Shown one piece after another: positions 112 through 63,968 of a stretch of DNA of 64,000 bases. Source of the DNA: Rhodocyclaceae bacterium (GTDB lineage: Bacteria; Pseudomonadota; Gammaproteobacteria; Burkholderiales; Rhodocyclaceae); the NCBI GenBank assembly GCA_030824115.1, contig JAVBYI010000009.1, positions 124,001 through 188,000 of the forward strand. Reading direction: 5' to 3'. The notes beneath the pieces were generated by a model, which saw nothing but the letters and a program-made list of their open reading frames with translations, was not told the origin of the DNA and did no database searches. The position numbers and the translations under genes are program-made. Position 1 is the first letter of the stretch. Each line of letters opens with the position of its first letter.

Positions 112-1160
112 AGCTTTTCGGAAACGCCCGCCGACTCGAAACTGGCCATCTCGTTGAGGAAGGCACCGGCGGCGCGCACCAGCGGCCAAGCCAGCGCCGC
201 ACCGGTGCCTTCGCCGAGGCGCAGGTCGAGTGACACCAAAGGCTCGACCCCCAGTGCGGCCAGCTGTGCACGATGCCCGGCCTCGGCCGAGGCATGGCAG
301 AACACGGCGTAGTCGAGGAAGGCCGGTGCCAGCCGCGCCGCCACCAGCGCGGCCGAGCCGCAGATGAAGCCATCGACGAGTACGAGCATTTTTTGCTGTG
401 CCGCCGCGAGCATCGCGCCCGCCATCATGGCAATTTCGAAGCCACCGTAGCGGGTCAAAACAGGCAATGGGTCGGCCAATGGATCATTGCTACGCGCCGG
501 CCAGATGTCGAGCGCCTGTTGCAGCAGCGCCTGCTTGCGGGCGAGACCGGCATCGTCCAGCCCGGTGCCGCGCCCGACGCAGGCCGCCAGCGGCGTGTCG
601 GTGAGGCAGTGGGTAAGGAGTGCGGCGGACGCAGTGTTGCCGATGCCCATCTCGCCGAAGCCGATCACCTCGCAACCGGCGGCAGCCAGTTCTTCGACCA
701 GCGCGGCGCCACGCGCCAGCGCGACTTCGCATTCGGCAGCGGTCATCGCCGCCCCAGACAAATAACTTGCCGTCCCCCCAGTGCCGACTTTTGCATTGAC
801 GAGATTGGGGCGCGCGCCAAAGTCATGCGCCACGCCGGCATCGACGATCACTAGCTCGATCCCATTGGCCCGTGCAAACACATTGATCGCCGCGCCGCCG
901 GCAAGGAAGTTCTCGACCATCTGCCAGGTGACATCCTGCGGAAAAGCCGAAATGCCTGCCTTGGCCGCGCCGTGATCGCCGGCGAAGACGACGATGTGCG
1001 GATGATTCAGGCTCGGGGTGAGCGAACCGCGCACCCGGCCGATCTGCCAGGCCAGCGTTTCGAGCCGTCCCAGTGCGCCGAGAGGTTTGGTTTTTGCGTC
1101 GATCTTTGCGCGCAGGGCAGCATCAAAACGGGGATCGGGAGAGCAGGGATTGGGGTTCAT
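108..1160 (-). CDS. cobT: CobT, nicotinate-nucleotide--dimethylbenzimidazole phosphoribosyltransferase
   Basis: 350 aa, full family length. It transfers phosphoribose from nicotinate mononucleotide to 5,6-dimethylbenzimidazole, giving alpha-ribazole phosphate. Visible landmarks are [10 protein letters not shown] near residue 25, FAGDHG near 59, [10 protein letters not shown] near 170, and the catalytic Glu in [10 protein letters not shown] at residue 317, the same number as in the Salmonella enzyme. The ATG at 1160 was chosen because homologues begin just before the KPxGxLGxLE helix; an in-frame upstream extension looks non-coding. The gene overlaps cobS by 4 bp and is divergent from the M48 gene across 56 bp. 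The stretch KVGTGGTA is encoded by a copy of the 24-bp interspersed motif (769-792). Confidence 0.95.
769..792 (-). repeat. 24-bp motif copy 1 (in cobT)
   Basis: Sense with cobT. Arm 1 has A for G at position 11; spacer GGGG; arm 2 perfect. Encodes KVGTGGTA. Confidence 0.8.
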
Positions 1161-1216
1161 CGCGAGGAACGTGCAAAAATCGCATTCTAGGCAATGCGGA
1201 CGATGAGATTGCACAA

Positions 1217-2572
1217 ATGAACGAATCAATTCCTGCCGGGCTCGGGCAGCGCGTGGCACAAAACCGGGTCACGCGCCGTGACGTGCTTTGGCTGTTTGGG
1301 GCCGGTGTCGCCGCCAGCGCCACCGCCACGCTCTCCGGCTGCGCCGCCTCGCCGATCGACGGCAAAAGCATCCTTGTCGGCATGAGCGAAAGGCAAGAGC
1401 GCGAAATCGACAAAGAAGTCGCGCCGCACCAGTTTTCGCAAGACATGGGCGCGATTCAGGATGGCGCACTCAACCAGTACGTCGGTAGTGTTGGCAGCCG
1501 CATGCATGCGCTCACGCATCGCCCCGACATGCCCTATTCCTACCGCGTGCTCAACGCCAATTACCTGAACGCCTACACCTTCCCCGGCGGCGCGATGGGG
1601 GTAACGCGCGGCATTCTGGCCGAACTCAATAACGAAGCCGAACTGGCCGCCCTGCTGGGTCACGAAATGGGTCATGTCAACGCGCGTCATGCTGCCCAGC
1701 GCCAGGGGCAGGGGTTGCTGGCGCAGGTGGCCGTGGCCGGCATCGGTATCGCCACATCCGACAGTAGTTGGGGCACGCTGACCACCATCGCCAGTCAGGT
1801 CGGCGCCAGCGCACTGCTGTCATCCTATTCGCGCGACAACGAACGCGAGGCCGATGCACTGGGCCAGCAGTACATGGTCAAGGCCGGCTATCCGGCCAGC
1901 GGCATGACGCAACTGCATGGCCTGCTGGTGCGCGAGGCGAAGGAGCAGCCCTCGCTGCTGGAAACCATGTTCTCCTCCCATCCGATGAACAGCGAGCGCA
2001 TGGCCACCGCGCAACAACGAGCGGAATCAACCTATGCGGCAAGCCTGAAAACCAATCCGCAGCGCGAACGCTTTATGGACAACACTGCCAAACTGCGTCA
2101 GCTCAAGCCCACCATCGATGCCTGCAAACAGGGCGAAACGGCGATGGCGAAGAAAAAAATGGATGAAGCGGAAGGTCACTTCGACAAGGCTGTCGACCGT
2201 TCGCCGCAGGACTATCCGGCCAACCTGCTGATGGCGAAATGCCTCGCCGCACAAGGCAAGCCGGCTGAAGCGGTGCGCTATGCCGAGGCGGCCCGCACGC
2301 TCTACCCGCAGGAAGCGCAGGCCCACAAGCTGGCGGGCACGCTCAAGCTGGCGCTGCGCGACCCGGCGGGGGCCTTTCAGGCCTTCGACCAGTTCGACCG
2401 ACGCCTGCCGGGCGATCCCGGCATCACCTTCCTGAAGGGCATCAGCCTCGAAGCCAGCGGCAATCGCAAAAGTGCTGCCGAGCATTACGCCCGCTTTATC
2501 CAGGCCGGCGCACAAGGCAAGCCGGCCGAGCATGCGCGTCAGCAGCTCAAAGCCTGGGGTTATCAGCGTTGA
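1217..2572 (+). CDS. M48-family metalloprotease with TPR region (BepA/LoiP-like lipoprotein)
   Basis: 451 aa. The N-terminus has twin arginines at 20-21 (TRRDVLWLF), a hydrophobic stretch and a lipobox-like LSGC with Cys42, suggesting Tat export and lipidation in the periplasm. The zinc site is HEMGH at 149-153, and NEREAD near residue 211 supplies the third ligand. The C-terminal third looks like TPR repeats. This matches BepA-type proteases that help outer-membrane protein assembly. The start at 1217 was chosen because it places the signal peptide at the N-terminus; the open frame extends upstream to 1073 without signal-like sequence. The stop overlaps the cobU TTG start, so a protease and a cobalamin enzyme share a transcript. 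The substrate is unknown. Confidence 0.85.
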
Positions 2573-3102
2573 ACCGGGGCACGGTCGATCTGGTGATTGG
2601 CGGCGCGCGCTCGGGCAAGAGCCGCCATGCCGAACAACTGGCGCAGGAGAGTGGACTGTCCGTGACCTACATCGCCACGGCAGAAGTGCGCGATGCGGAG
2701 ATGGCGGCACGCATCGCCCACCACCGTGCCAGCCGGCCGGCCCACTGGCGCACCCTGGAGGCACCAATGGCTTTGGCCGAGACTCTGCACGGTGCGGCCA
2801 ATGCCAACACCTGCGTGCTGGTCGACTGCCTGACACTCTGGCTGAGCAACCTCATGCTGGCCGAAAAGGAAGCCGAAATCGACACCCTGCTCGACATCCT
2901 GCCAAAGCTGCCGGGAAAGATCATTCTGGTCAGCAACGAGGTGGGCTGGGGCATCGTGCCGGAGAACGCCCTGGCGCGCCGCTTCCGCGACGAACAGGGC
3001 CGGCTCAATCAGCGCATCGCCGCACTGGCCGACAACGTCACGCTGGTGACAGCAGGCCTGCCGCTCATGCTCAAGCACACGCCGCTACCGCCCACCGCAT
3101 AA
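2569..3102 (+). CDS. cobU: CobU/CobP, adenosylcobinamide kinase / adenosylcobinamide-phosphate guanylyltransferase
   Basis: 177 aa, family length. It phosphorylates adenosylcobinamide and then transfers GMP, making the GDP-cobinamide used by CobS. The P-loop GGARSGKS is at residues 11-18, followed by RIAHHRASRP, which carries the His region guanylylated in the family, and VDCLTLWLSNL. The start is TTG at 2569, embedded in the stop of the preceding protease gene (TTGA), which implies translational coupling; no better start puts the P-loop at the usual distance. It ends directly against the convergent cobQ stop with no intergenic base. Confidence 0.94.
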   Translation: MNRGTVDLVIGGARSGKSRHAEQLAQESGLSVTYIATAEVRDAEMAARIAHHRASRPAHWRTLEAPMALAETLHGAANANTCVLVDCLTLWLSNLMLAEKEAEIDTLLDILPKLPGKIILVSNEVGWGIVPENALARRFRDEQGRLNQRIAALADNVTLVTAGLPLMLKHTPLPPTA

Positions 3103-4548
3103 TCAAATCCAGCGGGCGAGCAGTTGCCAATCCAGCGCCGCTTCGGTGGCGTCAGCCAGCCGATCAAGATCCGCCTCGCGCCGCGCCGCCAGATCGACCG
3201 GCGCAATATCTTTGGCACCCGCCCAGGCGAGCAGCGCGGTGAGCGCCTGCGGATGGTCGAACAGGCCATGGCAGTAGGTGCCGAGGATCTGGTTATCGTC
3301 CGAAATCGCGCCATCGGCACGGCCATCGTCGAGCACGACTGCCGGACGTAAGAGCGCCGGGCCGCGCGTTACACCCATGTGGATTTCGTAGCCCTGCATT
3401 GCCGTCCTGTCAGCGCCGACTTTTAGCCAGCCGCTCACATTCTTCAACTGTTTCTCGGCTTCGAGTGTCGTCTCGCAATCGAGCAGCCCCAAGCCAAGGC
3501 CACCTTGCCCTTCGATACCCAGCGGATCATGCAACGCACGGCCGAGCATCTGGTAGCCGCCGCACAGGCCGATGAGTTTGCCGCCATAGCGCAAGTGACG
3601 TTTAAACGCTGCCTCGTGGCCTTGGGTACGTAGCCACGCCAGATCGGCCTGCACTGACTTCGAGCCGGGCAGCACAATCAGGTCGCAAGGCGGCAGCGGC
3701 TGGCCAGGGCCGATCCAGCGGAAATCGATCTCGGGATGCAGGCGCAGCGGATCGAGGTCGTTGGCGTTGGAGATGCGCGGAAACACCGGTGCGGCAACGA
3801 CGAGCTTCGTTTCGCCACTGCGCTCGGAATGATGCGCGAGCGCATCCTCGGCGTCGAGAAACAGGCCGTGCAGATAGGGCAATGTGCCGAGCACCGGCTT
3901 GCCGGTATGTTTTGCCAGCCAGTCGAGGCCGGGCTGCAGCAGACCGATGTCGCCGCGAAAGCGGTTGATGACAAGCCCCTGCGTGCGGGCGCGCTCGGAA
4001 GGCGACAACAGGTCGAGCGTGCCGGATAGATGCGCCAGCACGCCGCCGCGGTCGATGTCGCCGATGAGGATCACCGGGATATCGACGGCTTCCGCAAAAC
4101 CCATGTTGGCAATATCCCGGTCGCGCAAATTCACCTCCGCCGGGCTGCCCGCGCCCTCGACCAGCACGCAATCGAATTCCTTGCTCAGTCGGCCCCACGA
4201 TGCCAGCACCGCCTGCATCGCCACGCGCTTGTAGTCATGGTAGGCGCGTGCATCGAGGTCGGCAACGGCCTTGCCGTGGATGATCACCTGCGCCCGCTTG
4301 TCGGTATTGGGTTTGAGCAGCACGGGGTTGAAGTCGATGCGCGGCGCCAGCCCGGCAGCCTGTGCCTGCAGGGCCTGCGCGCGACCAATCTCGCCGCCGT
4401 CGACAGTCACCGCCGAGTTCAGCGCCATGTTCTGCGACTTGAACGGTGCAACCTTCACGCCGCGCCTGTGCAGGATGCGGCAGAGCGCGGCGACCAGCGT
4501 GCTTTTGCCGGCGTCGGAGGTGCAGCCTTGTATCATCAGTGCCTTCAT
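3103..4548 (-). CDS. cobQ: CobQ/CbiP, cobyric acid synthase (glutamine-hydrolysing)
   Basis: 481 aa. It amidates side chains b, d, e and g of adenosylcobyrinic acid a,c-diamide using glutamine and ATP. The N-terminal dethiobiotin-synthase-like ATPase domain starts [17 protein letters not shown] and has [10 protein letters not shown]. The C-terminal class I glutamine amidotransferase domain has the nucleophile Cys329 in LCGGYQMLG and the His in GTYCHGLF at 427. It is divergent from cobD across only 14 bp and convergent with cobU. Residues KVGADRTA are encoded by a motif copy (3401-3424), just before the conserved GYEIHMG. Confidence 0.95.
3401..3424 (-). repeat. 24-bp motif copy 2 (in cobQ)
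   Basis: Both arms perfect, spacer ACAG. Sense with cobQ, encodes KVGADRTA. Confidence 0.9.
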
Positions 4549-4562: not shown

Positions 4563-5483
4563 ATGCCCACCCTCGCTTTCACCGCCCTCGTCGGCGTTTT
4601 GCTCGATCGCCTACTTGGCGAGCCGCGCCGCTGGCATCCGCTGGTCGGCTTCGGCCGACTTGCTGACGGAGCGGAGCGCCTGTTGCGCCAGGGTGCACCG
4701 GGGCATGCCGTCCGCAACCGCCTGCGCGGCCTCGCGGCATGGCTGCTGATCGTTGCACCCTGCGTCGCGCTGGCGGCTTGGGCCGCGCATCCGCTGGTCG
4801 ATGCGCTACTGCTCTGGCTGGCGCTGGGCGGACACAGCCTCGGCCAGCATGCGCGCGCCATTGCCGCGCCGCTGGCAGCGGGCGACCTGCCGGCCGCGCG
4901 ACAGGCCGTCGGCAGGATCGTTTCGCGCGACACGACGGCACTTGACGAGGAAGGCGTCGCCAAGGCCGCCGTCGAATCGGTGCTGGAAAACGGCAACGAC
5001 GCCGTGTTCGGCGCGCTGTTCTGGTTCTTTCTGCTCGGTGGGGCGGGCGCGGTGCTGTTCCGCCTCGCCAATACGCTCGATGCGATGTGGGGCTACAAGG
5101 ATGCGCGGCGCATTTACTTCGGCTGGGCGGCGGCGCGCATCGACGATGCGCTCAACTTCATCCCCGCGCGGCTGACGGCATTGACCTACGCCCTGCTGGG
5201 CAACACGCAACAGGCCCTCGCCTGCTGGCGCGCGCAGGCCAGTACCTGGAGCAGCCCGAATGCCGGGCCGGTGATGGCGGCAGGCGCCGGCGCGCTAAAA
5301 GTCGGCGTTGGCGGGACAGCGATCTATCACGGCGCGATGGAACAGCGTCCGCCGCTCGGCACAGGGGCCGCCCCGCAAGCTGCTGACATCGGCCGCGCAG
5401 TAGCGCTGGTCGAGCGTGGTCAGTGGCTGTGGATCGCATGCTTCGTGATCGGGACCGGGATATGGAGTATGGCCCTTGCTTGA
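4563..5483 (+). CDS. cobD: CobD/CbiB, adenosylcobinamide-phosphate synthase
   Basis: 306 aa integral membrane protein that attaches (R)-1-amino-2-propanol phosphate to adenosylcobyric acid. Family landmarks are [19 protein letters not shown] at the N-terminus, [22 protein letters not shown], and [13 protein letters not shown] near the C-terminus. The ATG at 4563 was chosen because it begins the DxxLGDP/EP motif at the normal distance; longer in-frame extensions run into cobQ. The stop lies inside the start of cobC, giving an 8-bp overlap. The LKVGVGGTA stretch is encoded by a motif copy (5297-5320), at the place where Pseudomonas-type CobD proteins have a native segment of equal length (from memory). 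Confidence 0.94.
5297..5320 (+). repeat. 24-bp motif copy 3 (in cobD)
   Basis: One change in each arm (T at 12, A at 22); spacer GCGG. Sense with cobD, encodes KVGVGGTA. Confidence 0.85.
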
Positions 5484-8504: not shown

Positions 8505-9176
8505 TCAGTAGCTTGGTGCCGTCCCGCCAGCGCCGACTTTCCAGCGTTCATCGAACAGCACGTCTTCAAGCGGCAGGCGTTGGCCCCAGCCGGCATCTTC
8601 GAACATCGGCCTCGGATAGAAGGCCGGCACCTTGCCGATGCAGAGGATGGCGAGCGGGCGGGCGCCGGCCGGCATCTCCAGCAGGTCGGCCAGCGCCTGC
8701 GGCTCGAAGAACGACACCCAGCCGATGCCGACGCCTTCGGCGCGTGCCAGCAGCCACATGTTCTGAATCGCGCAACCGACCGAGGCGATGTCCATCTCGG
8801 GCAGCGTGCGCCGGCCGATGAGGTGGCGTTCGCGCTCGGGCATCAGCGCGACGACCAGCAGTTCGGCGCAATCGCGGATGCCTTCGATCTTCACCTGCAT
8901 GAATTCTTCGTTGCGACTGGGCAGCGCGGCGGCAGTGGCAAGGCGTTCCTGCTCGACAAGGGCATGGATGCGTGTGCGCCGCTCGGAGTCGCGCACGCGG
9001 ATGAAGCGCCAGGGCTGCATGTAGCCAACCGAGGGGGCCAGATGCGCGGCTTCGACCAGACGTTCGATCAGACCTTCCGGCAGCGGGTCGGGCAGGAAGT
9101 GGCGCATGTCGCGGCGCTCGCGGATCGTGCGGTCGACAGCGGCAATTTCGGCGTCGGAATAACGGTGATCGCTCAT
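8505..9176 (-). CDS. bluB: BluB, 5,6-dimethylbenzimidazole synthase
   Basis: 223 aa flavin-destructase of the nitroreductase fold. It converts reduced FMN and oxygen to 5,6-dimethylbenzimidazole, the lower ligand used by CobT. RERRDMRHFLPDPLP, APSVGYMQPWRFI and GIGWVSFF are typical BluB signatures. The ATG at 9176 overlaps the cobB stop (ATGA); longer in-frame extensions merely read into cobB. The C-terminus, KVGAGGTAPSY, is encoded largely by a motif copy (8518-8541). Its presence implies aerobic lower-ligand synthesis. Confidence 0.95.
   Translation of the reverse strand: MSDHRYSDAEIAAVDRTIRERRDMRHFLPDPLPEGLIERLVEAAHLAPSVGYMQPWRFIRVRDSERRTRIHALVEQERLATAAALPSRNEEFMQVKIEGIRDCAELLVVALMPERERHLIGRRTLPEMDIASVGCAIQNMWLLARAEGVGIGWVSFFEPQALADLLEMPAGARPLAILCIGKVPAFYPRPMFEDAGWGQRLPLEDVLFDERWKVGAGGTAPSY
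8518..8541 (-). repeat. 24-bp motif copy 4 (3' end of bluB)
   Basis: First base G, otherwise perfect; spacer GCGG. Sense with bluB, ten bases before its stop codon. Confidence 0.9.
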
Positions 9177-10441
9177 GGTAGGAATAACCTTGCGGTGGCG
9201 GCCGGGTTCGAGGGAAAGTAGAAGTGCATGTAGCTCGCGGTGAGGCGGCCGCTGCGATAAATCGCCTCGCCGCCCTTGCCCGCCGTCTTGACGGCCTGTG
9301 CAATGGGTGCAAGCGTCGTGTTGGCCGTCGAGTAGTGGAAGGTGTGGCCGGCGAGGCTGCCCTCGGGCAGGTCGACCGACAGGATGCCGAGGCCAGCGAG
9401 CTTCGTTTGCATGCGCACTTGACCGGGCAGGAGGCCGAACATCGGGTGGGCATCTAGGCTGTCGAAGCAGGTCATCATGCCGCCGCATTCGGCGAGCAGC
9501 GGCTTGCCAGCGGCGACATGGGCGGCAAGGGCGACGCGCATCGCGCTGTTGGCGGCGATGGCCGGGCCGTGCAGTTCGGGATAGCCGCCGGGCAGCCAGA
9601 CGGCGTCGCACGCCGGCAGCACGGCGTCGGCCAGCGGCGAGAAGAAGGCGAGCCGCGCACCGAGTTGCGCCAGGCATTCGAGATTGGCGGGATACAAAAA
9701 GCAGAAGGCCGCATCGCGCGCGACGGCGATGGTCTTGCCGGCGAGCAGCGGCGCAAATGTCGGCGCTGGCAGGACGGCGAATTCCACGGGCGGGGGCAGT
9801 TCGGCGGCAGCCGTGGCGCTGAGCAGGTCGGCCATGCGCTCGATGCGCGCGTCGAGGTCGGCGATCTCGGCGGCAGGCAAGAGGCCCAGATGGCGCTCGG
9901 GCAACGCGGCGTCGACATCGCGCGGCAAGGCGCCGGCCCAGGCGATGTCCTCAGGCAGCGTTTCGCGGCACAGCTCGGCGTGGTAATCGCTGCCGACGCG
10001 GTTGGCGAGCGCATGCGTGATCGGCGCACCATCGCGGTAATGCTTCAGTCCCCATGCCACGGCGCCGAAACTGCCGGCCATCGCACTGGCGTCGATGACC
10101 AGCAATACCGGCAAGCCCAACCGACGCGCGAGTTCGGCCGAGTCCGGTGCGCCGTCGTTCAGGCCCATCACGCCCTCGACGAGGAGCAGCTCGGCATCCT
10201 GCGCGGCGCGCGCGAGCCGCCAGCGCGCGTCTTCCTCGCCACCCATGCGGAAGTCGATGTTCTCGCAGGGCTGGCCACTGGCGAGTACGTGAATCTGCGG
10301 ATCGAGAAAATCCGGCCCGCACTTGAAGACGCGCACCTTGCGGCCCAGCCGCGTGTGCAGGCGCGTCAGCGCAGCGACCACGGTGGTCTTGCCGTGGCCG
10401 GAGGCCGGGGCGGCGACGAGGAGTGCGGGGGTGGCTACCAT
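9173..10441 (-). CDS. cobB: CobB/CbiA, cobyrinic acid a,c-diamide synthase
   Basis: 422 aa. It amidates the a and c side chains of (hydrogeno)cobyrinic acid. The N-terminal P-loop AAPASGHGKTT and FKCGPDFLDP identify the ATPase half. The C-terminal amidotransferase half has Cys319 in LLAECGGMMTC and a His in YMHFYF near 406. It overlaps cobO by 7 bp and bluB by 4 bp, so the three are co-translated. AVLPAPTF near the middle is encoded by the reverse reading of a motif copy (9755-9778). Confidence 0.94.
   Translation of the reverse strand: MVATPALLVAAPASGHGKTTVVAALTRLHTRLGRKVRVFKCGPDFLDPQIHVLASGQPCENIDFRMGGEEDARWRLARAAQDAELLLVEGVMGLNDGAPDSAELARRLGLPVLLVIDASAMAGSFGAVAWGLKHYRDGAPITHALANRVGSDYHAELCRETLPEDIAWAGALPRDVDAALPERHLGLLPAAEIADLDARIERMADLLSATAAAELPPPVEFAVLPAPTFAPLLAGKTIAVARDAAFCFLYPANLECLAQLGARLAFFSPLADAVLPACDAVWLPGGYPELHGPAIAANSAMRVALAAHVAAGKPLLAECGGMMTCFDSLDAHPMFGLLPGQVRMQTKLAGLGILSVDLPEGSLAGHTFHYSTANTTLAPIAQAVKTAGKGGEAIYRSGRLTASYMHFYFPSNPAATARLFLP
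9755..9778 (+). repeat. 24-bp motif copy 5 (in cobB)
   Basis: Perfect arms with T at position 4; spacer GCAG. Antisense to cobB, which reads AVLPAPTF. Confidence 0.9.
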
Positions 10442-11034
10442 TCGATCCCCGGCATCGCCTGCACGCCAGCCTGGAAAGCGTGCTTGACCAGCGTCATGTC
10501 GGTTACGGTATCGGCGGCCTCAACCAGTTCGGCCGGCGCGGCGCGCCCGGTAACGATCAGGTGCTGCATCGGCGGGCGGGCTGCGAAGGCGGCGAGCACT
10601 TCGGCCGTGTCGAGCCAGCGGTATTTGAGCGCATAAGTGAATTCGTCGAGAATGACAAGGTCGACGGCGGGATCGGCAAAAGCCTGTTGTGCCACGGCCC
10701 ATGCCGCCTGTGCAGCAGCAGCATCCTTGGTGGCGTCCTGCGTCTCCCAGGTAAAACCCTCGCCCATCACATGCCAGCGCAGGTTTGGCTGTGCGCGGAA
10801 AAAAGCCTCTTCCCCGGTATCCGAACGGCTTTTGACGAACTGGATCACGACCGCATTCAGGCCATGGCCCAACGCGCGCGCCAACACGCCGAAAGCGGCG
10901 GATGATTTGCCCTTGCCATTGCCGGTGTGGATCAGGAAGAGGCCGCGTGCCGTCTGCGCAGCGCCGACTTTTGCGTCGACCACTTCCTTCTTGCGTTGCA
11001 TGCGCGCGCGATGGCGCTCATCCTTGGGTGTCAT
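10435..11034 (-). CDS. cobO: CobO/BtuR, corrinoid adenosyltransferase
   Basis: 199 aa. It transfers the adenosyl group from ATP to Co(I) corrinoids. The P-loop GNGKGKSSAAFG, VIQFVKS and VILDEFTYAL are diagnostic of the BtuR/CobO family. The ATG at 11034 gives the usual short basic N-terminal arm (MTPKDERHRARMQRKKEV) and overlaps the preceding btuF-like stop. DAKVGAAQTARG is partly encoded by a motif copy (10949-10972). In characterised CobO proteins this arm has the same length with different residues (from memory), suggesting substitution rather than insertion. Confidence 0.95.
   Translation of the reverse strand: MTPKDERHRARMQRKKEVVDAKVGAAQTARGLFLIHTGNGKGKSSAAFGVLARALGHGLNAVVIQFVKSRSDTGEEAFFRAQPNLRWHVMGEGFTWETQDATKDAAAAQAAWAVAQQAFADPAVDLVILDEFTYALKYRWLDTAEVLAAFAARPPMQHLIVTGRAAPAELVEAADTVTDMTLVKHAFQAGVQAMPGIEW
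10949..10972 (-). repeat. 24-bp motif copy 6 (in cobO)
   Basis: Both arms perfect, spacer CGCA. Sense with cobO. Confidence 0.9.
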
Positions 11035-15475: not shown

Positions 15476-15540
15476 ACGGCGGCGGCAGAGATGGAACCCA
15501 CCGACGCACCGCACCCCGCAGCGCATTCAACTGGATCATC

Positions 15541-15708
15541 CGTGGCCGGTCTCCGGGCTTGAAAGTTTTGAACCATCGCCTTCCCGGGAAGATTCCCAGT
15601 GGCATTTGGATGGTTCCGCACTTTCTTACCGTTGCGGGGGCAGCACAGGCATTGTTGTCGCCAACTCACCTGTTTCCCGTTTCACCCGATTTAACTCGGG
15701 CACCTCGA
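15541..15708 (-). promoter_or_regulatory. Cobalamin riboswitch controlling the btuB operon
   Basis: On the minus strand the leader carries the hallmark blocks in order: GGTGCCCGAG (15705-15696), a GTGAAACGGGAA stretch, CCCCCGCAACGGTAA, GCCACTG (15603-15597), and the B12 box AAGCCCGGAGACCGGCC (15560-15544). This is the AdoCbl/cobalamin aptamer. It lies between the promoter and btuB, with about 130 nt of leader to the ATG. It should repress btuB and the downstream btuCDF-cobO-cobB-bluB genes when cobalamin is plentiful. Confidence 0.95.
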
Positions 15709-15722
15709 ACGAAGCGGGGCGG

Positions 15723-15744: not shown

Positions 15745-15768
15745 GCTGTACGGCCAGCGCCGACTTTT
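15745..15768 (-). repeat. 24-bp motif copy 7 (btuB promoter)
   Basis: Arm 1 perfect, arm 2 TACAGC; spacer GCCG. It overlaps the -35 region upstream of the TATAAT box. Confidence 0.75.
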
Positions 15769-16444: not shown

Positions 16445-16622
16445 AATTCCCTGCGGTGTTCGCCTAGGCCATACATTCCTTGAACCAATGCTAATTGGCA
16501 TCGGTCGCAGCCCATAGACGCCGCCGTTGTGATCGCTCCTTGCGAGCGAACCTGAAGCGGCAGGAAAGCGGCCACTCTGAACCCAGGTTCAGGATGCCGG
16601 CCAAACGACACAGCGGGGAACC
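16445..16622 (+). ncRNA. ssrS: 6S RNA
   Basis: The region after zapA can fold with closing arms AATTCCCTGCGGTGTT (start) and GACACAGCGGGGAA (end), typical of betaproteobacterial 6S RNA. The middle contains paired segments such as CGCTCCTTGCGAGCG. Position after zapA is the usual location. 6S RNA binds sigma-70 holoenzyme and modulates transcription in stationary phase. Ends are approximate. Confidence 0.85.
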
Positions 16623-16627
16623 TATCG

Positions 16628-17963: not shown

Positions 17964-18425
17964 ATGCGCTGCTGGTTGATGAAAAGCGAACCTGCCGTGG
18001 TCGGTATCGACCACGTGCTGGCGATGCCGAACCAGAGCGTCGACTGGTGGGGCGTGCGCAACTATCAGGCGCGCAACTTCATGCGCGACCAGATGAAGCT
18101 TGGCGATAGGGTGTTCTTCTACCACTCCAACTGCCCGGTGCCGGGCATCGCCGGACTGGCCGAGGTATGCAAGCTGGCCTATCCCGACCGCACCCAGTTC
18201 GACCCGAGCAGTCATTACTTCGACCCGAAGTCGACACCGGAGAATCCGCGCTGGGTCAATGTGGATGTGCGTATCGTCAGGAAGACCCGGCTGGTGAGTC
18301 TCGACGAGCTGCGCAGCCATGCGGAACTGGCCCAGATGCGCGTGCTGCAGCGTGGCAACCGCCTGTCGATCACCCCGGTTGATCCGGCCGAGTGGGATTT
18401 CATCGTCTGTGAATTGATGAAATGA
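17964..18425 (+). CDS. EVE-domain protein (thymocyte nuclear protein 1 family)
   Basis: 153 aa, family length. CWLMKSEPAVVGIDHV, WWGVRNYQARNFMRD, MKLGDRVFFYHSN and GIAGLAEVCK are the family's signature blocks. EVE domains bind modified bases in DNA or RNA (PUA-like fold). The frequent placement near zapA/6S RNA is conserved. ATG at 17964 follows the upstream stop by 4 bases; its end overlaps the TauE gene by 4 bp. Confidence 0.92.
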   Translation: MRCWLMKSEPAVVGIDHVLAMPNQSVDWWGVRNYQARNFMRDQMKLGDRVFFYHSNCPVPGIAGLAEVCKLAYPDRTQFDPSSHYFDPKSTPENPRWVNVDVRIVRKTRLVSLDELRSHAELAQMRVLQRGNRLSITPVDPAEWDFIVCELMK

Positions 18426-19222
18426 CGGTCTGGCTATTAGGTTATCTGGCCCTCGGTGCGGTCGCCGGCTTCTTCGCCGGCTTGCTCGGCGTGGGCGGTG
18501 GCGCCATCATGGTGCCGGTACTGGCGTTGATGTTCGCCGCCCAAGGGTTTCCCGACGCACATCTGATGCACTTGGCCCTCGGGACATCAATGGCAGCCAT
18601 CGTGTTCACCTCGATTTCCTCCCTGCGCGCACACCATAGCCACGGCGCCGTGCTGTGGCCGATTGTCTGGGCCATCGCACCAGGCATCCTGATCGGCACT
18701 TTCGTCGGGGCGCAATTCGCCAGCCAGATCCCGACCCGTCCGCTGGCGATGTTTTTCACGCTGTTCATGAGTTACGTCGCGTTTCAGATGCTGGCGAACA
18801 TCAAACCCAAGCCTTCGCGCCAACTCCCCGGATCATTGGGCATGTTCCTCGTCGGCAGCGGTATCGGCGCCCTCTCCGCGCTGGTCGCCATCGGCGGCGG
18901 CTCGCTTTCCGTGCCTTTCATGACCTGGTGCAACGTCAAGATGCACCATGCCATCGGCACCTCGGCCGCCATCGGCCTACCCATCGCCGCAGCCGGTACG
19001 CTGGGTTATTGGGTGGGCGGACAAGGCACTACCGATCTGCCCGCAGGCGGCTTTGGCTACATTTACCTGCCCGCCTTGGCGGCCTGCGTGGCAATGAGCA
19101 TGCTCACGGCGCCGCTGGGCGCAAAAGCGGCGCACAAACTCCCCGTCCCAACCCTGAAGAAAATATTTGCCGGCGTCATCCTGCTGCTGTTGGTCAAGAT
19201 GGTGCATGGCCTGTTTCTGTAA
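18422..19222 (+). CDS. TauE/SafE family membrane transporter
   Basis: 266 aa, mostly hydrophobic, with two internally related halves, each starting with a glycine-rich helix (GFFAGLLGVGGGAIMVPVL and GIGALSALVAIGGGSLSVPF). These are the TauE/SafE signatures. Relatives export sulfite, sulfoacetate or other organic anions; the substrate here is unknown. The stop TAA is formed by the first A residues of a motif copy (19222-19245). Confidence 0.88.
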   Translation: MTVWLLGYLALGAVAGFFAGLLGVGGGAIMVPVLALMFAAQGFPDAHLMHLALGTSMAAIVFTSISSLRAHHSHGAVLWPIVWAIAPGILIGTFVGAQFASQIPTRPLAMFFTLFMSYVAFQMLANIKPKPSRQLPGSLGMFLVGSGIGALSALVAIGGGSLSVPFMTWCNVKMHHAIGTSAAIGLPIAAAGTLGYWVGGQGTTDLPAGGFGYIYLPALAACVAMSMLTAPLGAKAAHKLPVPTLKKIFAGVILLLLVKMVHGLFL

Positions 19223-19245
19223 AAAGTCGGCGTTGGCGGGACGGC
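19222..19245 (+). repeat. 24-bp motif copy 8 (after the TauE gene)
   Basis: One change (T at 12); spacer GCGG. Its first A completes the TauE stop codon; it precedes the diguanylate cyclase gene. Confidence 0.9.
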
Positions 19246-35646: not shown

Positions 35647-35670
35647 GCCGTCTTATCAGCGCCGACATTT
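35647..35670 (-). repeat. 24-bp motif copy 11 (stop codon of the FAH gene)
   Basis: Both arms perfect with T at 4; spacer ATAA. It overlaps the last two bases of the FAH stop codon. Confidence 0.88.
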
Positions 35671-36436
35671 ACTCGTAACGATTGACGAGCCGCCCAATCC
35701 CGTCAATCACCACTTCGACCGTATCGCCTGCCGCGAGCGGCCCGGCGCCGACCGAGGTGCCGCAGGCAATCACGTCGCCTGCTTCCAGTGTCATGTCCTG
35801 GGAAATGCGGCTGACGATTTCGGCCGGCGAAAAGAACATGTCGCTGACCGGATAGTCTTGGCGCACCTCGCCCGAGATGACTGCACCGACCCGCAGGCTG
35901 GCGGGATCAAGACCGGTGGCAATCACCGGGCCGAACACGCCGAAGGTGTCAAAGCTCTTGGCGCGCGTCCAATGCACGAAGGCCGGATCGAGGCGCATCA
36001 CATCGCGGGCCGTCACGTCATTCACGCAGGTATAGCCGAAGATGGCTGCCGGTGCCTCGGCGACTGACACCGCCTTGGAGCGCCGGCCGATCACAATACC
36101 CAGCTCCGCCTCGAACACCACCGCGCCGTGATAACCGGCCGGGCGGCGAATCGTGTCGCCATGCGCCGCAAAACAGTTGCTGCTCTTGAGAAAGTAGAGC
36201 GGATGCTCGGGGCGATGCAGCCCCTCCTTCGTTGCTCGCTCATGGAAGTTGTTCCACAGACCGATCATCTTGCCCGGCCGGCAGGGCATCAGCACGCGCA
36301 CGTCCGCCAGCGCAAACTGCTGTGACGTGGGCTGCGGGTCGGCAAACAGGTCGCCAGTCCAGACGGTGACGATTTCGTTGTCGAGGGTGCCGAAATGTTC
36401 AGCCCCTGCCGCTTCAAAGCGCAGCCAGTGGGTCAT
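35669..36436 (-). CDS. Fumarylacetoacetate hydrolase family protein
   Basis: 255 aa. FAH fold: VFEAELGIVIG provides two metal-binding acidic residues, YTCVNDVTARDVM, AKSFDTFGVFGPVI and GDVIACGTSVGAGPL are conserved blocks. Relatives hydrolyse acylpyruvates or decarboxylate oxaloacetate; the substrate cannot be told from sequence. The ATG at 36436 was chosen since upstream frame overlaps the ATPase gene. The stop lies within a motif copy (35647-35670). Confidence 0.85.
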   Translation of the reverse strand: MTHWLRFEAAGAEHFGTLDNEIVTVWTGDLFADPQPTSQQFALADVRVLMPCRPGKMIGLWNNFHERATKEGLHRPEHPLYFLKSSNCFAAHGDTIRRPAGYHGAVVFEAELGIVIGRRSKAVSVAEAPAAIFGYTCVNDVTARDVMRLDPAFVHWTRAKSFDTFGVFGPVIATGLDPASLRVGAVISGEVRQDYPVSDMFFSPAEIVSRISQDMTLEAGDVIACGTSVGAGPLAAGDTVEVVIDGIGRLVNRYE

Positions 36437-39847: not shown

Positions 39848-39874
39848 TTAAAGCTCGACTTATTCGAGCTTTAA
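39848..39874. repeat. 11-bp perfect inverted repeat
   Basis: TTAAAGCTCGA and TCGAGCTTTAA flank a five-base loop. No T-run follows on either strand, so it is more like an operator or processing hairpin than a terminator. It abuts the motif copy at 39874. Confidence 0.7.
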
Positions 39875-39897
39875 AAAGTCGGTGCTGGCCGGACGGC
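39874..39897 (+). repeat. 24-bp motif copy 14 (intergenic)
   Basis: T for C at position 10; spacer GCCG. Starts at the last base of an 11-bp inverted repeat. Confidence 0.88.
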
Positions 39898-44234: not shown

Positions 44235-44258
44235 AAATGTCGGCGCTGGCAGGACGGC
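44235..44258 (+). repeat. 24-bp motif copy 16 (after the methyltransferase gene)
   Basis: Both arms perfect with T at 4; spacer GCAG. Starts five bases after the stop codon. Confidence 0.92.
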
Positions 44259-46245: not shown

Positions 46246-46269
46246 AAATGTCGGCGCTGGTGAGACGGC
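46246..46269 (+). repeat. 24-bp motif copy 17 (between two stop codons)
   Basis: Both arms perfect with T at 4; spacer GTGA. It fills nearly all of the 27-base gap between the convergent TPM and transglutaminase genes. Confidence 0.92.
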
Positions 46270-50523: not shown

Positions 50524-51984
50524 ATGACCCTCGAACTGCACAACTATCCCCAGCCCAACACCTATGATGAGCTGCTCGATGAGTGTCAGCAGCCGCGGCC
50601 TGCCGCGCGCGTCCTCTTCGATTACGTCAATCGCCTCGGCGCCAAGGAACTCGCCGCCCGCCGCGAGAGCGTCGACGCCGCCATCATGGCCATGGGCATT
50701 ACCTTTACCGTTTATAGCGACGCCGGAAACATCGACCGCGCATGGCCTTTCGACATCATCCCGCGCACCTTGTCGAGCAAGGAATGGGCACGTATCGATG
50801 CCGGCCTCAAGCAGCGCCTGACCGCCCTCAACCTGTTCATCAACGATCTTTACAACGAGCAGAAAATCGTCAGGGACGGCATTTTCCCGATCGAGGTACT
50901 GGAAGGTTCGAAGAACTTTCGTGCTCAATGCAAGGGCATGACGCCCCGTTTTGGGGTGTGGGCGCATGTGTGCGGCACCGATCTGGTGCGCGACAAGGAT
51001 GGCACTGTCTATGTGCTTGAGGACAATCTGCGCGTGCCTTCCGGCGTTTCCTACATGCTGGAAAACCGCCAGCTGATGAAGCGGCTGTTCCCCGAACTGT
51101 TCAAGTCGAGTGACATCCTGCCGGTCGACGATTACCCGACGCAGTTGTACGACACCCTCGCCGCCCTGTCACCGCGCGACAGTGAGCGCCCGGTGATTGC
51201 GGTGCTCACGCCCGGCATCTACAACTCGGCCTATTTCGAGCACAGCTATCTGGCGCAGAAGATGGGTGCCATCCTCGTCGAAGGTTCCGATCTGGTCGTC
51301 AAGGATGACGACTGTGTCTACATGAAGACGATTTCCGGCCTGAGTCGTGTTGATGTCATCTACCGCCGCATCGACGACGACTTTCTCGACCCCGAGGCCT
51401 TCCGGCCCGATTCCGCGCTCGGCGTACCCGGCCTGATGCGCGCCTGGCGTGCCGGCAATGTCGGTATCGCCAATGCGCCCGGCGCCGGTGTGGCGGACGA
51501 CAAGGTGGTGTATACCTTCGTGCCGCAGATCATCAAGTACTACCTCGACGAAGAGCCGATCCTGCCCAACGTACCGAGCTGGATGTGTATGTACGAGGAC
51601 CAGCGCGAGCACGTCCTCGCCAACCTCGACAAGCTGGTGGTCAAGCCGGCCAACGAGTCGGGCGGCTACGGCATGCTGATCGGCCCGCGCGCCAGTCCCG
51701 AGGAGCGCGCGCAGTTCGCCGACCTGATTCGCGAAAATCCACGCAACTACATGGCCCAGCCGACGCTGTCGATTTCCACCGCGCCGACGCTGATCGGCGA
51801 CAAGCTGGCGCCGCGCCATCTCGACCTGCGCCCCTTCGTGCTGCAGTCGGACAGGCTCTACGCCACCACTGGCGGCCTGACGCGCGTCGCCCTGCGCGAA
51901 GGCTCGCTGATCGTCAATTCCTCGCAGGGAGGCGGCAGCAAGGACACCTGGATCATCAACACCGATGACGGGGAGGCCACCTGA
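50524..51984 (+). CDS. Circularly permuted ATP-grasp protein (DUF404/DUF407 type)
   Basis: 486 aa. [75 protein letters not shown] and [17 protein letters not shown] identify the circularly permuted ATP-grasp family. ATP-grasp enzymes form amide bonds, so a peptide-like product is plausible. Divergent from Anbu across 137 bp; it overlaps alpha-E by one base. Confidence 0.92.
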
Positions 51985-52958
51985 TGCTCTCGCGTGTCGC
52001 CGAAAATCTCTACTGGCTGGGCCGCTATCTCGAACGTGCCGAGAACACCGCCCGCTTCATCAACTCCACCACGCAGGTGTTGCTCGACCTGCCGAAGGAT
52101 TCCGCCTTCGGCTGGGACGTGCTGCTCAAGGTCGCCGGTCTCGACGAGATTTTCAGCGAACACCATCCACATTTGGCGCAAGCCGATGAAGACAGCATCG
52201 TGCGCTTCCTCGTCGAGGACGAAAAGAACCCGAGTTCGATCCTCTCCGGCATCCACAACGCCCGCGAAAATGCGCGCACGGTGCGTGAAGTGCTGCCGAT
52301 GGAGCTATGGGAGCGCATCAACAGCCTCTACCTGTATGCGCGCGACAATGCGGCGCGTGCCAGCGAAGGACGTGGCCCGCGTATCGAGGTGCTACAGGGC
52401 GTAATCGGCCGGCGTGAATCGATCATCGGCCTGCTCACCGGCTCGATGAGTCAGGATGTTGCCTACCAGTTCATCAAGCTCGGCCGCAACATCGAGCGTG
52501 CCGACATGACGACGCGCATTATCGACGTCAATTCCGCCGTGCGCCTGCCGCGCGATCCAGCGCTAGCAGCGGTCGCCACCGAACGCATGTGGATGAGCAC
52601 GCTCAACGGCCTCTCCGCCTACCAGATGTATCGCCGCCATGTCAGCGTGCATGTACGCGCCAACGAGGTGGTTAACTACCTGCTGAAGAATTCGCACTTC
52701 CCGCGCACGGTGCTGCATTGCCTCGCCGAGGTCGAAGGCTGCCTATCCGTGCTGCCCGAGCACAAGGACGCCATGAAGAAAGTGCGCCAGGCCTGGCGGC
52801 GTGTCGAGAGCATGCAGTTGAACGATCTCAAGCCGACGGTATTGCACGAGTATCTCGATCAGGTGCAAAGCGACCTCGGCGAAGTCCATACCGCCGTGGC
52901 CCGGCAGTATTTCCACTTGCACCACGAAAATGTCGGCGCTGGCGGGATGGCACAGTAA
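51984..52958 (+). CDS. Alpha-E domain protein
   Basis: 324 aa, nearly all helical. [57 protein letters not shown] and VAYQFIKLGRNIERADMTTR are alpha-E signatures. It always accompanies the circularly permuted ATP-grasp in this type of cluster. The last residues, NVGAGGMAQ, are encoded by a motif copy (52929-52952), and the stop abuts the convergent ribE stop. Confidence 0.92.
   Translation: MLSRVAENLYWLGRYLERAENTARFINSTTQVLLDLPKDSAFGWDVLLKVAGLDEIFSEHHPHLAQADEDSIVRFLVEDEKNPSSILSGIHNARENARTVREVLPMELWERINSLYLYARDNAARASEGRGPRIEVLQGVIGRRESIIGLLTGSMSQDVAYQFIKLGRNIERADMTTRIIDVNSAVRLPRDPALAAVATERMWMSTLNGLSAYQMYRRHVSVHVRANEVVNYLLKNSHFPRTVLHCLAEVEGCLSVLPEHKDAMKKVRQAWRRVESMQLNDLKPTVLHEYLDQVQSDLGEVHTAVARQYFHLHHENVGAGGMAQ
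52929..52952 (+). repeat. 24-bp motif copy 18 (3' end of the alpha-E gene)
   Basis: Arm 2 GATGGC; spacer GCGG. Sense; encodes NVGAGGMA just before the stop. Confidence 0.9.
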
Positions 52959-53566: not shown

Positions 53567-55366
53567 TTAATTGGGTTTCTGCGCTTTTTCGAGGACGCCG
53601 AGAAACTGTGAAGCCGGCTGATAACCGACCACGCGCAGATCGGTATTTTCCTTGCCATCCTTGAAGAAGATGATACCTGGCGGGCCGAACAGGCCGAAGC
53701 GCTTGAGCAGCGCCTTGTCGTCGTCGTTATTGGCCGTGACATCCGCCTTGAGCAGGGTGAATTCCTTCATCTTCGCAGCCACCTGCGGATCGGCGAAGGT
53801 GAATTTCTCCATCTCCTTGCAGCTCACGCACCAGTCGGCATAGAAATCGAGCATCACGGGTTTGGTCGCACCGGCAATACGTGCATCGAGTTCGGCAACC
53901 GTCTTCACTTTTTCAAAAGTCGGCGCTGGCGAGACGGCATTGCCTGCCGTTCTCAGAAATGCGAGGGGCTGCAATGGATCGCGGCTGCCGCCCATCAGTC
54001 CGAGCAGCATGGCTGCACCAGCCAGCAGCAAGGTAATGCCAATGCCTTTCCAGAACCGCGCCCAGCCGCCCGAATGGGCCGGCAGCGGTTCAAGCGCGCG
54101 CAGGTAGATGGCCGGCACAATCAGCAACATGGCCCAGCCGGCCATCACCAGCCAACTCGGCAACACCGGTGAGACCAGCCACAAGGCCGTGGCGAGCAGC
54201 ACAACGCCGAAGAATTTCTTGACGGCTTCCATCCACGGGCCGGTCTTGGGCAGGAAGGAACGCGAGAACACGCCGACGGCCAAGAGCGGCGCGCCCATGC
54301 CGAGGCCCATGGAGAACAGCGCCGCGCCACCGAGCACGGCATCCTTCGTCTGTGCGATGTAGAGCAGCGCGCCGGCCAGTGGCGCGGCAACGCAGGGGCC
54401 GACGATCAGGGCCGAGAGGGCGCCCATGAGGGCAATTGCCGGCAGCGAGCCGCCCTGGTGATTGGCGGTGTCCGACAGTTTCGACTGCAAGGCGGCCGGC
54501 AGTTGCAATTCATAGAAACCGAACATCGAGAAGGACAGCACGACGAAAACCAGCGCGAAACTGCCGAGCACCCAGGCGTTTTGCAGGGCGGCCGACAGCA
54601 GCGTGCCGCTGAAGCCGGCCGCGACGCCGATTAGCGCATAGGTCACGGCCATGCCGAGCACATAGGCCAGCGAGAGCGTGAATGCGCGCAGATGGGTCAC
54701 CGCGTGCCCATGATTGACGATGATGCCGGAGAGGATCGGGATCATCGGGAAGACGCAGGGCGTCAGCGATAACAACAGGCCGAAGCCAAAGAAGGTGATG
54801 ACGGCCATCCAGAAGCCGCTGCCCTTGAGCAATTTGGCGATCTGGCCGCTCTCGTCGCCTGCGTCGCCACTGGCGGGTGCGGCCGATGCCGTCTCGCCAG
54901 CGCCGACATTTGCAGGCAGCGGCACACTGGCCGTTGCGGGCGCACCGCTCATCGCAGCCAGCGTGATTCTGGCGTCCTGCGTCATTGGCGGATAGCACAC
55001 GCCGCCATCCCAGCAGCCCTGCGATGTGGCTTTGAGGATGACTTGCCCGCTGCCGCTGGCGACGGGAATGCGCGCAACCGCTTCGTTGTCGCGGAAGATA
55101 TGCACCTTGCCGAAGAACTCGTCGTCCTTTTCCTTGCCCTTGGGCATCTCGGGTGTGCCGAGCTTGACGCTGGCCGGTTCGACGGCGAATTCGATTTTTT
55201 CCTTGTAAAGGTAGTACTCGGGGGTGATGGTCCAGCGTGCTTCGATGGTCTTGTCGTCCAGCGCACGGGCAGAAAATCGGAAAGCCTGCTCCGGGTCGAG
55301 CGGCTCGGCAGCCATAGTAAGGAAGCTGGCAAGCAGCAGGCTGAACAGGGCAAGAAATCGTGTCAT
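53567..55366 (-). CDS. dsbD: DsbD, thiol:disulfide interchange protein
   Basis: 599 aa. Signal peptide, N-terminal periplasmic alpha domain with the Cys pair in CWDGGVCYPP, eight-helix transmembrane beta domain (LSLTPCVFPMIPILSGIIV, VGPCVAAPLAGALLYIAQ), and a thioredoxin-like gamma domain with YADWCVSCKEME. It carries electrons from cytoplasmic thioredoxin to periplasmic partners. Two motif copies flank the membrane domain in opposite orientations: NVGAGETA (54888-54911) and AVSPAPTF (53915-53938), both in interdomain linkers. Confidence 0.94.
   Translation of the reverse strand: MTRFLALFSLLLASFLTMAAEPLDPEQAFRFSARALDDKTIEARWTITPEYYLYKEKIEFAVEPASVKLGTPEMPKGKEKDDEFFGKVHIFRDNEAVARIPVASGSGQVILKATSQGCWDGGVCYPPMTQDARITLAAMSGAPATASVPLPANVGAGETASAAPASGDAGDESGQIAKLLKGSGFWMAVITFFGFGLLLSLTPCVFPMIPILSGIIVNHGHAVTHLRAFTLSLAYVLGMAVTYALIGVAAGFSGTLLSAALQNAWVLGSFALVFVVLSFSMFGFYELQLPAALQSKLSDTANHQGGSLPAIALMGALSALIVGPCVAAPLAGALLYIAQTKDAVLGGAALFSMGLGMGAPLLAVGVFSRSFLPKTGPWMEAVKKFFGVVLLATALWLVSPVLPSWLVMAGWAMLLIVPAIYLRALEPLPAHSGGWARFWKGIGITLLLAGAAMLLGLMGGSRDPLQPLAFLRTAGNAVSPAPTFEKVKTVAELDARIAGATKPVMLDFYADWCVSCKEMEKFTFADPQVAAKMKEFTLLKADVTANNDDDKALLKRFGLFGPPGIIFFKDGKENTDLRVVGYQPASQFLGVLEKAQKPN
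53915..53938 (+). repeat. 24-bp motif copy 19 (in dsbD)
   Basis: Both arms perfect, spacer GCGA, identical to copy 10. Antisense; dsbD reads AVSPAPTF, as thiL does. Confidence 0.92.
54888..54911 (-). repeat. 24-bp motif copy 20 (in dsbD)
   Basis: Both arms perfect with T at 4; spacer GCGA. Sense with dsbD, encodes NVGAGETA. Confidence 0.92.
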
Positions 55367-59939: not shown

Positions 59940-59960
59940 AATTTTTAGGAGATTCAAGAC

Positions 59961-60228: not shown

Positions 60229-60255
60229 GGCCCGGACTCCGGGCCTTTTTTATTT
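60229..60255 (+). terminator. Rho-independent terminator after the cold-shock gene
   Basis: GGCCCGG, three bases, CCGGGCC, then TTTTTTATTT. It should end the csp transcript before infA. Confidence 0.9.
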
Positions 60256-60277
60256 CCTAAACCAACGAGGTGATTCT

Positions 60278-60538: not shown

Positions 60539-60554
60539 GAGCAATCGCACAGCA

Positions 60555-63068: not shown

Positions 63069-63085
63069 CTGCGCGCTGGAAGCGT

Positions 63086-63871
63086 TCAGTGACCCGTGGG
63101 TTCGAAACGCTCGGCCAGAAAGATCTGCCGGGCAGTTTGACTCTGCAGGAACTTCAGGAAATCACGCACCTCCTCCTTGTTGGCGGACGACTTGAGGGGT
63201 GCAAGAAAGTAGCGAATCGGCTTGTGCAAGCGGGTGTCGATGGCAAAACTTTCTTTCAGATGCTGGTTGAGATTGGTGCGAAACAGGATGCCCGCCGTCC
63301 CCGTCTTTTTCTCGGCCAGGGATTCGGCCAGCAGGGTGATGTTCTTTCGGGTCGCAATCTTGTCCTTGATCCGCCCCCACAAACCGGCGCTTTCCAGTGC
63401 TTCCTTGGCGTAACGACCAAACGGTGCCGTACTCGGATCGCCGATCAGGATATCCGTCACTTGTTCGCTGGCCAGATCCTGCAGGTTGTTGAGCTGAAGC
63501 GGATTGACGCTCGCCACCGCAACCACGAGACGATTGCCCCACGGGCTGCTTACCTGCTCGCGGGCTACCAGGGTGTTTTCGACCGCAAAGTCCATCCACT
63601 CCTGATCGGCCGAAACGAAAATGTCGGCATGCAGCGCACCGCCTCGCAAACCCTTGGCGAGCAGGCCGGACGATTTGCAGTTGTAGTCGATCTCGACCGG
63701 GGTGCTGGCCTGATAGGCCGCGCCGATCTTTTTCATGACCTCGCAGGTGGAGTTCGCCAATGCCAGCCGGAGATGCTCAGCCAGCGCGGGTGGTGTAAGC
63801 ACCAGGAACAGGAATAGTGTAGACAGCAGCCCGCGCCAGAAACGCGATGGCAATGGCGATAGCATTGGCAT
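63086..63871 (-). CDS. ModA-like molybdate/tungstate-type substrate-binding protein
   Basis: 261 aa. Signal peptide MPMLSPLPSRFWRGLLSTLF and on to PPALA. The mature part resembles ModA: RLALANSTCEVMKKIGAAYQ, SSGLLAKGLRGGALHADIFV and GDPSTAPFGRYAKEAL. Its ligand may be an oxyanion. No ModB/ModC permease genes are adjacent; instead it is upstream of a membrane GGDEF-EAL gene, so it may sense rather than transport. ATG at 63871 is preferred over one at 63904 because it places the signal peptide at the start. Confidence 0.8.
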   Translation of the reverse strand: MPMLSPLPSRFWRGLLSTLFLFLVLTPPALAEHLRLALANSTCEVMKKIGAAYQASTPVEIDYNCKSSGLLAKGLRGGALHADIFVSADQEWMDFAVENTLVAREQVSSPWGNRLVVAVASVNPLQLNNLQDLASEQVTDILIGDPSTAPFGRYAKEALESAGLWGRIKDKIATRKNITLLAESLAEKKTGTAGILFRTNLNQHLKESFAIDTRLHKPIRYFLAPLKSSANKEEVRDFLKFLQSQTARQIFLAERFEPTGH

Positions 63872-63944
63872 CTTGATCCCCCGATTATTTTTCTCGGGTG
63901 TCATGATGGCACATCTGCGCCCCAAGTTGGGGCGTCATTTTCTT

Positions 63945-63968
63945 GCCGTCCTACCAGCGCCGACTTTT
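63945..63968 (-). repeat. 24-bp motif copy 21 (upstream of the ModA-like gene)
   Basis: Both arms perfect, spacer GTAG. Lies about 75 bases upstream of the ModA-like ATG in the non-coding right end. Confidence 0.88.

Follow-up and report, generated by a model that had tools for sequence, protein, structure and literature searches.

A dispersed 24-bp motif with lineage-specific dialects is a candidate DNA uptake sequence in a group of Rhodocyclaceae

The stretch of DNA analysed here, hereafter the window, comprises 64 kb of the genome of a Rhodocyclaceae bacterium (G000; 2,999,174 bases in 24 contigs) and carries numerous copies of a short motif, which we consider a candidate DNA uptake sequence (DUS). 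The genes that hold copies encode core enzymes (cobT, cobQ, cbiB, bluB, cobB, cobA, thiL, a P-type ATPase gene and dsbD). A search with AAAWGTCGGCGCTGNNNNGACGGC, allowing up to 3 mismatches, returned 20 matches in the window, compared with 0.05 expected by chance and a maximum of 1 over 100 shuffles; 11 copies had no mismatch, 7 had one and 2 had two (Table 1). A preliminary description of the window had listed about 20 scattered copies, and all of these were found at the listed starts, save that the copy given at 52929 begins at 52928. A degenerate copy had also been placed at 43582, where just AAAGTCGGCG is present and the right part is lacking; it was not among the matches.

Based on 157 copies from G000 (248 kb) and the congener G011 (283 kb), the consensus unit is AAAWGTCGGCGCTGGCRRGACGGCR, with a length of 24-25 bp. 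Conservation drops sharply at both edges of the unit, and the flanks beyond are not conserved. The motif had been described as two nearly invariant arms separated by a variable 4-base spacer. The spacer turned out to be partly conserved (G in 90%, C in 87%, then two positions that are mostly A or G). At position 25, A accounts for 62% and G for 26% of the copies. About 20 positions are specified across 24-25 bp, and the short motif is no palindrome.

Exact matches to GTCGGCGCTGN4GACGGC, with the reversed pattern as a control, were counted in G000, 18 congeners, 18 genomes of other genera of the family and 24 genomes from other families. G000 contains 503 exact copies, 252 forward and 251 reverse; the reversed control gave 0 in G000 and 1 match in one of the 61 genomes overall. 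Between 94 and 478 copies were found in 15 of the 18 congeners, and the remaining three had few or none (G004, 11; G016, 2; G005, 0). Among the other genera, two genomes had 132 and 154 copies and the other 16 had 0-3, as did each of the 24 genomes from other families. Counts at chance level, or confinement to the window or to a single duplication, had been named as outcomes that would refute the proposal. The counts are far above chance, and the copies are confined to neither, with no flank conservation across the 157 copies compared.

In a scan of named genomes, the matches listed were mostly records titled Rhodocyclaceae or Rhodocyclales. Twenty-two genomes from these records, which partly overlap the 61-genome panel, were counted fully. 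In 14 of them, among which were Sulfuritalea, Rugosibacter, Sulfurisoma and a metagenome-assembled genome (MAG) bearing the name Propionivibrio dicarboxylicus, the motif had 21-216 copies, with 21 in Sulfurisoma sediminicola BSN1; the other 8, which included Thiobacillus, Azonexus and Rhodoferax, had 1-5. The nearest named DNA, among 109 named loci, was from a Sulfurisoma MAG with about 76% identity. Judged from the record titles, the source habitats were water and sediment. Viral contigs gave mostly single matches among those listed, a number for which the chance level was not computed.

Dialects of the motif were the strongest single finding of the analysis. Enrichment of 10-mers revealed AAACTCGGCGCYGGCGRGGCGGCG in G016, AAAGTCGGCGCYGGYGGGACGGTG in G004 and AAAAGTCAGT-N9-ACGGCG in G028, a member of another genus. 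The G016 dialect has 216 copies (101+115) in G016, where the main version has 2, and 2 copies across the 18 other genomes searched; the G028 dialect has 271 copies (136+135) in G028 and 3 across 60 others. For the G004 dialect, 13 copies (up to 2 mismatches) were found in 69 kb, and the reversed control gave 0. A 120-kb sample of G016 held 25 sites, and 6 of them had flanks that could be aligned to other species; the G000/G011 dialect occupied the identical place at 3 of the 6, and at 2 more a copy lay at another point of the variable stretch. A 100-kb sample of G028 held 23 sites, 9 of which were spanned by a protein alignment with G000 or G011; two of these coincided codon for codon, one being the cobT copy at window position 769, two had a copy no more than 30 bp away (the alignment being poor for one of them) and five had none. 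Five dialect sites in all were therefore at the same orthologous place.

In a tree of the single gene DsbD, G016 was placed among the main-dialect species (local support 0.54, nested in a group supported at 0.97), as was G004 (0.91), so whole sets of sites seem to have been respelled within single lineages. The one process known to us that gives such respelling is a sequence-specific reader that changes and feeds back on the genome. A changing reader with such feedback has been described for DUS dialects (PMC3630211). In the same tree, the copy-free congener G005, which has a full ComEC match, was sister to the motif-rich G006 (1.00), and nothing motif-like was present among the top 22 10-mers of 91 kb of G005.

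The 10-mer search covered 11 of the 18 genomes of other genera (100 kb of G028 and 60-80 kb of ten others), and a related motif was found in G028 only. Two of the remaining genomes were inspected for their top repeats, which were a tandem array in G023 and, in G031, inverted pairs resembling repetitive extragenic palindromic (REP) elements. The pairs in G031, which represents a different genus of the family, consist of GTTGGGCATCGCT...CTCACCCCAACCTAC placed about 80-90 bp apart (L393:17972-18051). In five other families, 80 kb each, the enriched lists contained nothing motif-like, with the strong 12-mers of G057 left uninspected. These 12-mers, for example CTCAGGATGACA with 9 occurrences in 80 kb, are strongly enriched in G057:C1:200001-280000.

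Gene calls with a home-made caller gave 242 genes in 248 kb of G000, where the DNA is 91.4% coding; 50 of the 74 copies were intragenic, 15 intergenic and 9 across a gene end. The corresponding numbers for 83 copies in 283 kb of G011 (87.8% coding) were 54, 24 and 5. An inserted unit would be expected to leave 7-9 extra residues in the protein. Proteins of genomes without the main dialect were aligned over 32 sites, with G000 and G011 counted apart. Among the 48 resulting alignments, several of which were of low identity, 22 were gap-free, 2 were shorter by 7-9 residues, 3 by 10-14, and 21 had other gaps. Simple insertion of a 24-bp unit was rejected at most sites, as just 5 of 48 alignments were shorter by at least 7 residues. 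Most copies appear to have arisen in place or via homologous replacement rather than by insertion of the unit.

G000 and G011 are 86.9% identical over alignable DNA. A copy was retained in G011 at 51 of 59 syntenic G000 sites and in G000 at 49 of 51 G011 sites. At the 51 shared G000/G011 sites, the 20 fixed positions were 92.5% identical, the four spacer positions were 77.9% identical, and the DNA 13-50 bp away was 81.4% identical. The first figure is inflated by the requirement of at most 3 mismatches in both genomes, but just 8 of the 59 G000 sites had no such copy in G011. The higher identity of the copies than of their flanks, together with retention at shared sites, indicates that the motif is maintained at permissive sites, as reported for DUS, whose conserved copies lie in permissive DNA (PMC2397512). 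Opposite some copies, such as that at window position 37593, the sister species has a sequence that differs strongly; this has likewise been reported for DUS and interpreted as arrival via recombination (PMC2397512).

The copies in G000 are evenly spaced and balanced between strands. The coefficient of variation (CV) of the gaps was 0.598, compared with 0.979 for random placement, and 0 of 5000 random placements were as even. With a mean gap of 3.3 kb, no gap in 248 kb was below 600 bp, compared with 12 expected, and the smallest was 625 bp. The effect was weaker in G011 (CV 0.752, p 0.004; 4 gaps below 600 bp, compared with 13 expected). The two strands held 37 and 37 copies in G000 and 45 and 38 in G011.

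In some copies, bases 11 and 12 are separated by an additional hairpin. A 39-bp form occurs in G011, and a shorter form of about 23-27 bp occurs at the same point in G000, G004, G007, G009, G010, G011, G012 and G013; two cases in G011 have the hairpin in reverse orientation. A second kind, TGAAATGCCCCGCAGCGGGTA-like, follows base 20, with four cases in G009 and G011 and a variant in G007. Totals from the insert search are unusable as insert counts, since in many matches a GTCGGC lies by chance ahead of a complete motif, and occurrence inside or outside the motif was counted in stretches not chosen for an insert. There, the 39-bp hairpin was inside the motif in 5 of 5 cases (G011); the shorter one had both arms in 6 of 9, a degenerate or doubly inserted motif in 2 of 9 and no arms in 1 of 9 (G007). 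Six of 27 inserted elements had an ortholog among the other species compared, and for all six the short motif was present in at least one other species; two further orthologous pairs also matched an inserted with a short form. The presence of the short motif at these orthologous places suggests that the short form is probably ancestral and that the hairpin was inserted.

The hairpins mostly leave both motif arms intact, they are rarely seen outside a motif in the sequence examined, and several of their lengths are divisible by three. To our knowledge, no enzyme performs such an insertion, and we know of no explanation of the inserts. A tentative and rather doubtful proposal is that these hairpins of about 20-40 bp are new miniature riders whose points of entry into the uptake motif are fixed, one following base 11 and the other base 20. 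They would parasitise or boost the uptake signal, and would perhaps move as imported single strands. In addition, an arrangement that joins a truncated copy to an inverted piece and a complete copy (GTCGGCGCTGGCGGCATGTTTGGCGTCCCGCCAGCGAAAGTCGGCGCTGGCGGGACGGC) recurs in G008 and G010 (e.g. G008:C108:6646-6704).

Among the roles suggested in the preliminary description, an uptake signal is strongly favoured: the motif has dialects, evolves in place within genes, uses both strands equally, is evenly spaced and is better conserved than its flanks. We consider it quite probable from these patterns that the motif is a DUS of a group of Rhodocyclaceae, and we infer uptake, a receptor and drive. A surface receptor, most likely a minor pilin of the type IV pilus, would bind the 24-bp duplex outside the cell and favour import, and imported strands would recombine at their home locus. 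Copies arisen by chance would then spread through the population and be kept by molecular drive and/or by selection for uptake of own DNA. A shift in receptor preference within a lineage might respell the genomic copies over time and so produce dialects.

Genome-wide uptake sequences, by which a few mucosal bacteria recognise their own DNA for uptake, have been described in Neisseriaceae and Pasteurellaceae. They have been tied to mucosal surfaces, where host DNA is abundant (PMC7811141). The DUS of Neisseriaceae, which is read by the minor pilin ComP and has dialects in related species (PMC3630211), resembles the present motif in its many copies, its dialects, its intragenic and intergenic positions, its conserved copies in permissive DNA and the existence of copy-free genomes in the family. 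It differs in being a 10-12-mer with thousands of copies, whereas the motif has about 20 specified positions over 24-25 bp, occurs in hundreds of copies, formed no inverted pairs over the 248 kb of G000, and has environmental hosts and a predicted role in uptake. Like the uptake signal sequence (USS) of Pasteurellaceae (PMC7811141, PMC12616744), for which ComN/PpdA is the predicted receptor, the motif is rather long and evenly spaced (for USS, Karlin et al., cited in PMC1939737); the H. influenzae USS recurs about every 1 kb, and the mean gap here is 3.3 kb. Its sequence is unrelated to the USS.

Literature searches returned nothing on uptake sequences in Rhodocyclaceae or Rhodocyclales, nor on natural transformation in Sulfuritalea; for the letters GTCGGCGCTG, no work on such a repeat was among the matches listed, judged by title and start of abstract. 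If the motif is a DUS, Rhodocyclaceae would be a third family with uptake sequences, an environmental one with at least 4 dialects, and would provide an independent test of why such sequences evolve. It would also offer a case for studying how a receptor changes in step with hundreds of sites across a genome, a test of whether dialects isolate species, and a tag for transforming bacteria in which genetic manipulation is difficult.

An intracellular protein that organizes, segregates or repairs the chromosome, such as a nucleoid protein or the reader of a recombination signal, would also need many evenly spaced sites, and the even spacing and high information content of the motif suit such a role. 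Chi and KOPS (FtsK orienting polar sequences) signals are strand-polar, and the absence of polarity in the 248-kb contig of G000 (37/37) argues against signals of that type. Respelling of a whole genome in a single species is not readily explained by such a protein either, and the absence of copies from the congener G005 and from most genomes of other genera (0-3 copies in 16 of 18) also counts against it. Karlin et al., cited in PMC1939737, took the even spacing of USS in this structural sense, whereas PMC1939737 itself describes the spacing as less even than a compaction role requires. On balance, a chromosomal site of this kind is unlikely.

Relics of a small mobile element, REP-like or akin to a miniature inverted-repeat transposable element (MITE), that was transposed through the genome would account for the sharp edges at 24-25 bp, the longer hairpin forms, which look mobile, and the five alignments shortened by at least 7 residues, two of them by 7-9. 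Like REP elements, the motif is short, dispersed and present in hundreds of copies. REP elements are mobilised by the REP-associated tyrosine transposase (RAYT; Y1_Tnp). No RAYT match was found in G000 or in 13 of the 18 congeners (5 have one), and genomes with 94-503 copies, namely G000, G001, G003, G011 and G017, were among those without a match. Moreover, unlike REP elements, the short form is not palindromic and evolves in place within genes; 22 of the 48 alignments were gap-free, differing dialects occupy identical codons across genera, and a REP-like repeat seen in this family, with inverted pairs about 80 bp apart in G031, looks different. The REP-like residue proposed earlier is therefore disfavoured, and we regard a mobile origin as very improbable. 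The intragenic copies are confined to few reading frames and encode recurring peptides (KVGAGGTA, AVSPAPTF, RRLASADF), as would be expected if the motif reflected a codon or peptide bias of protein linkers. This explanation, which we give almost no credence, is already contradicted by the intergenic copies: 24 of the 74 G000 copies are intergenic or at a gene end, in a genome stretch with a non-coding share of 8.6%, and the same DNA yields different peptides from frames on both strands.

Several observations weigh against a DUS as well. Even spacing and strand balance are also compatible with a structural role, and the hairpin inserts inside copies were unforeseen by an uptake model. The other dialect was not at exactly the same place for 3 of the 6 alignable G016 sites and 7 of the 9 G028 sites. 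Divergence was not lower near copies, with identities of 86.0% within 500 bp and 87.2% beyond 1500 bp. A core-genome bias has been reported for Neisseria uptake sequences; here it is weak or absent, with 58 of 74 G000 copies (54.0 expected) and 55 of 83 G011 copies (53.3 expected) in shared DNA. Inverted terminator pairs, which are common in uptake sequences without being universal, were not found in 248 kb of G000, where the smallest gap was 625 bp. As for the machinery, ComEC is present also in the copy-free G005 and in motif-free genera, and the ComP_DUS pilin family (PF16732) was found in motif-free genomes and gave no match in the motif-rich, incomplete genomes G012 and G015, so PF16732 does not identify the receptor.

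Overall, ComEC was matched in 34 of 37 genomes (G000 and 33 of 36 relatives); G016 had two partial matches on separate contigs, and G018, which is 83% complete, had none. PF16732 has one member in G000 and was matched in 33 of the 37. Since both are near-universal in this sample, the presence of competence genes was uninformative as a correlate of the motif.

Table 1. Motif copies in the window and representative hairpin-bearing copies in congeners
Feature	Position	Strand	Mismatches	Context and orthologous sites
Copy	769-792	-	1	In frame inside cobT (108-1160 -); G009 has hairpin-inserted form, G028 its own dialect at same codons
Copy	3401-3424	-	0	Inside cobQ (3103-4548 -); G016 has its own dialect at same place
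Copy	5297-5320	+	2	Inside cbiB/cobD (4563-5483 +)
Copy	8518-8541	-	1	C-terminal codons of bluB (8505-9176 -); G011 has 63-bp hairpin-inserted form
Copy	9755-9778	+	0	Antisense within cobB (9173-10441 -)
Copy	10949-10972	-	0	Close to N-terminus of cobA/cobO (10435-11034 -)
Copy	15745-15768	-	2	Intergenic
Copy	19222-19245	+	1	First base is last stop-codon base of 18422-19222 (+)
Copy	29855-29878	+	1	Intergenic; also in G011 and G012
Copy	31002-31025	+	0	Antisense within thiL (30780-31718 -)
Copy	35647-35670	-	0	Two-base overlap with stop codon of 35669-36436 (-)
Copy	37593-37616	+	0	Antisense within P-type cation ATPase gene (36448-39051 -); sequence differs in G011, no gap over 48 aligned columns
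Copy	38475-38498	-	1	Within P-type ATPase gene 36448-39051 (-)
Copy	39874-39897	+	1	Intergenic
Copy	44235-44258	+	0	Intergenic
Copy	46246-46269	+	0	Intergenic, convergent genes either side
Copy	52928-52951	+	1	Final codons of Alpha-E protein gene (51984-52958 +)
Copy	53915-53938	+	0	Antisense within dsbD (53567-55366 -); common to G001, G007, G009, G011, G012, G017; degenerate or absent in G003, G004, G005, G013, G016
Copy	54888-54911	-	0	dsbD linker; several congeners have copies elsewhere in same linker
Copy	63945-63968	-	0	Two-base overlap with stop codon of 63967-65586 (-, extends beyond window)
Hairpin between bases 11/12	G011:C45:96392-96454, 190373-190435, 200842-200904, others			
Hairpin between bases 11/12	G009 L222:6547-6594, L223:15153-15200			
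Second hairpin kind	L223:14063	+		
Second hairpin kind	L146:3221	+		
Second hairpin kind	L146, offset 14933	-		Offset along strand read
Second hairpin kind	G011:C45, offset 96644	-		Offset along strand read

The only Rfam matches over the window were a 6S RNA gene at 16445-16623 (+) and a cobalamin riboswitch at 15527-15722 (-), which adjoins the cluster of cobalamin genes.

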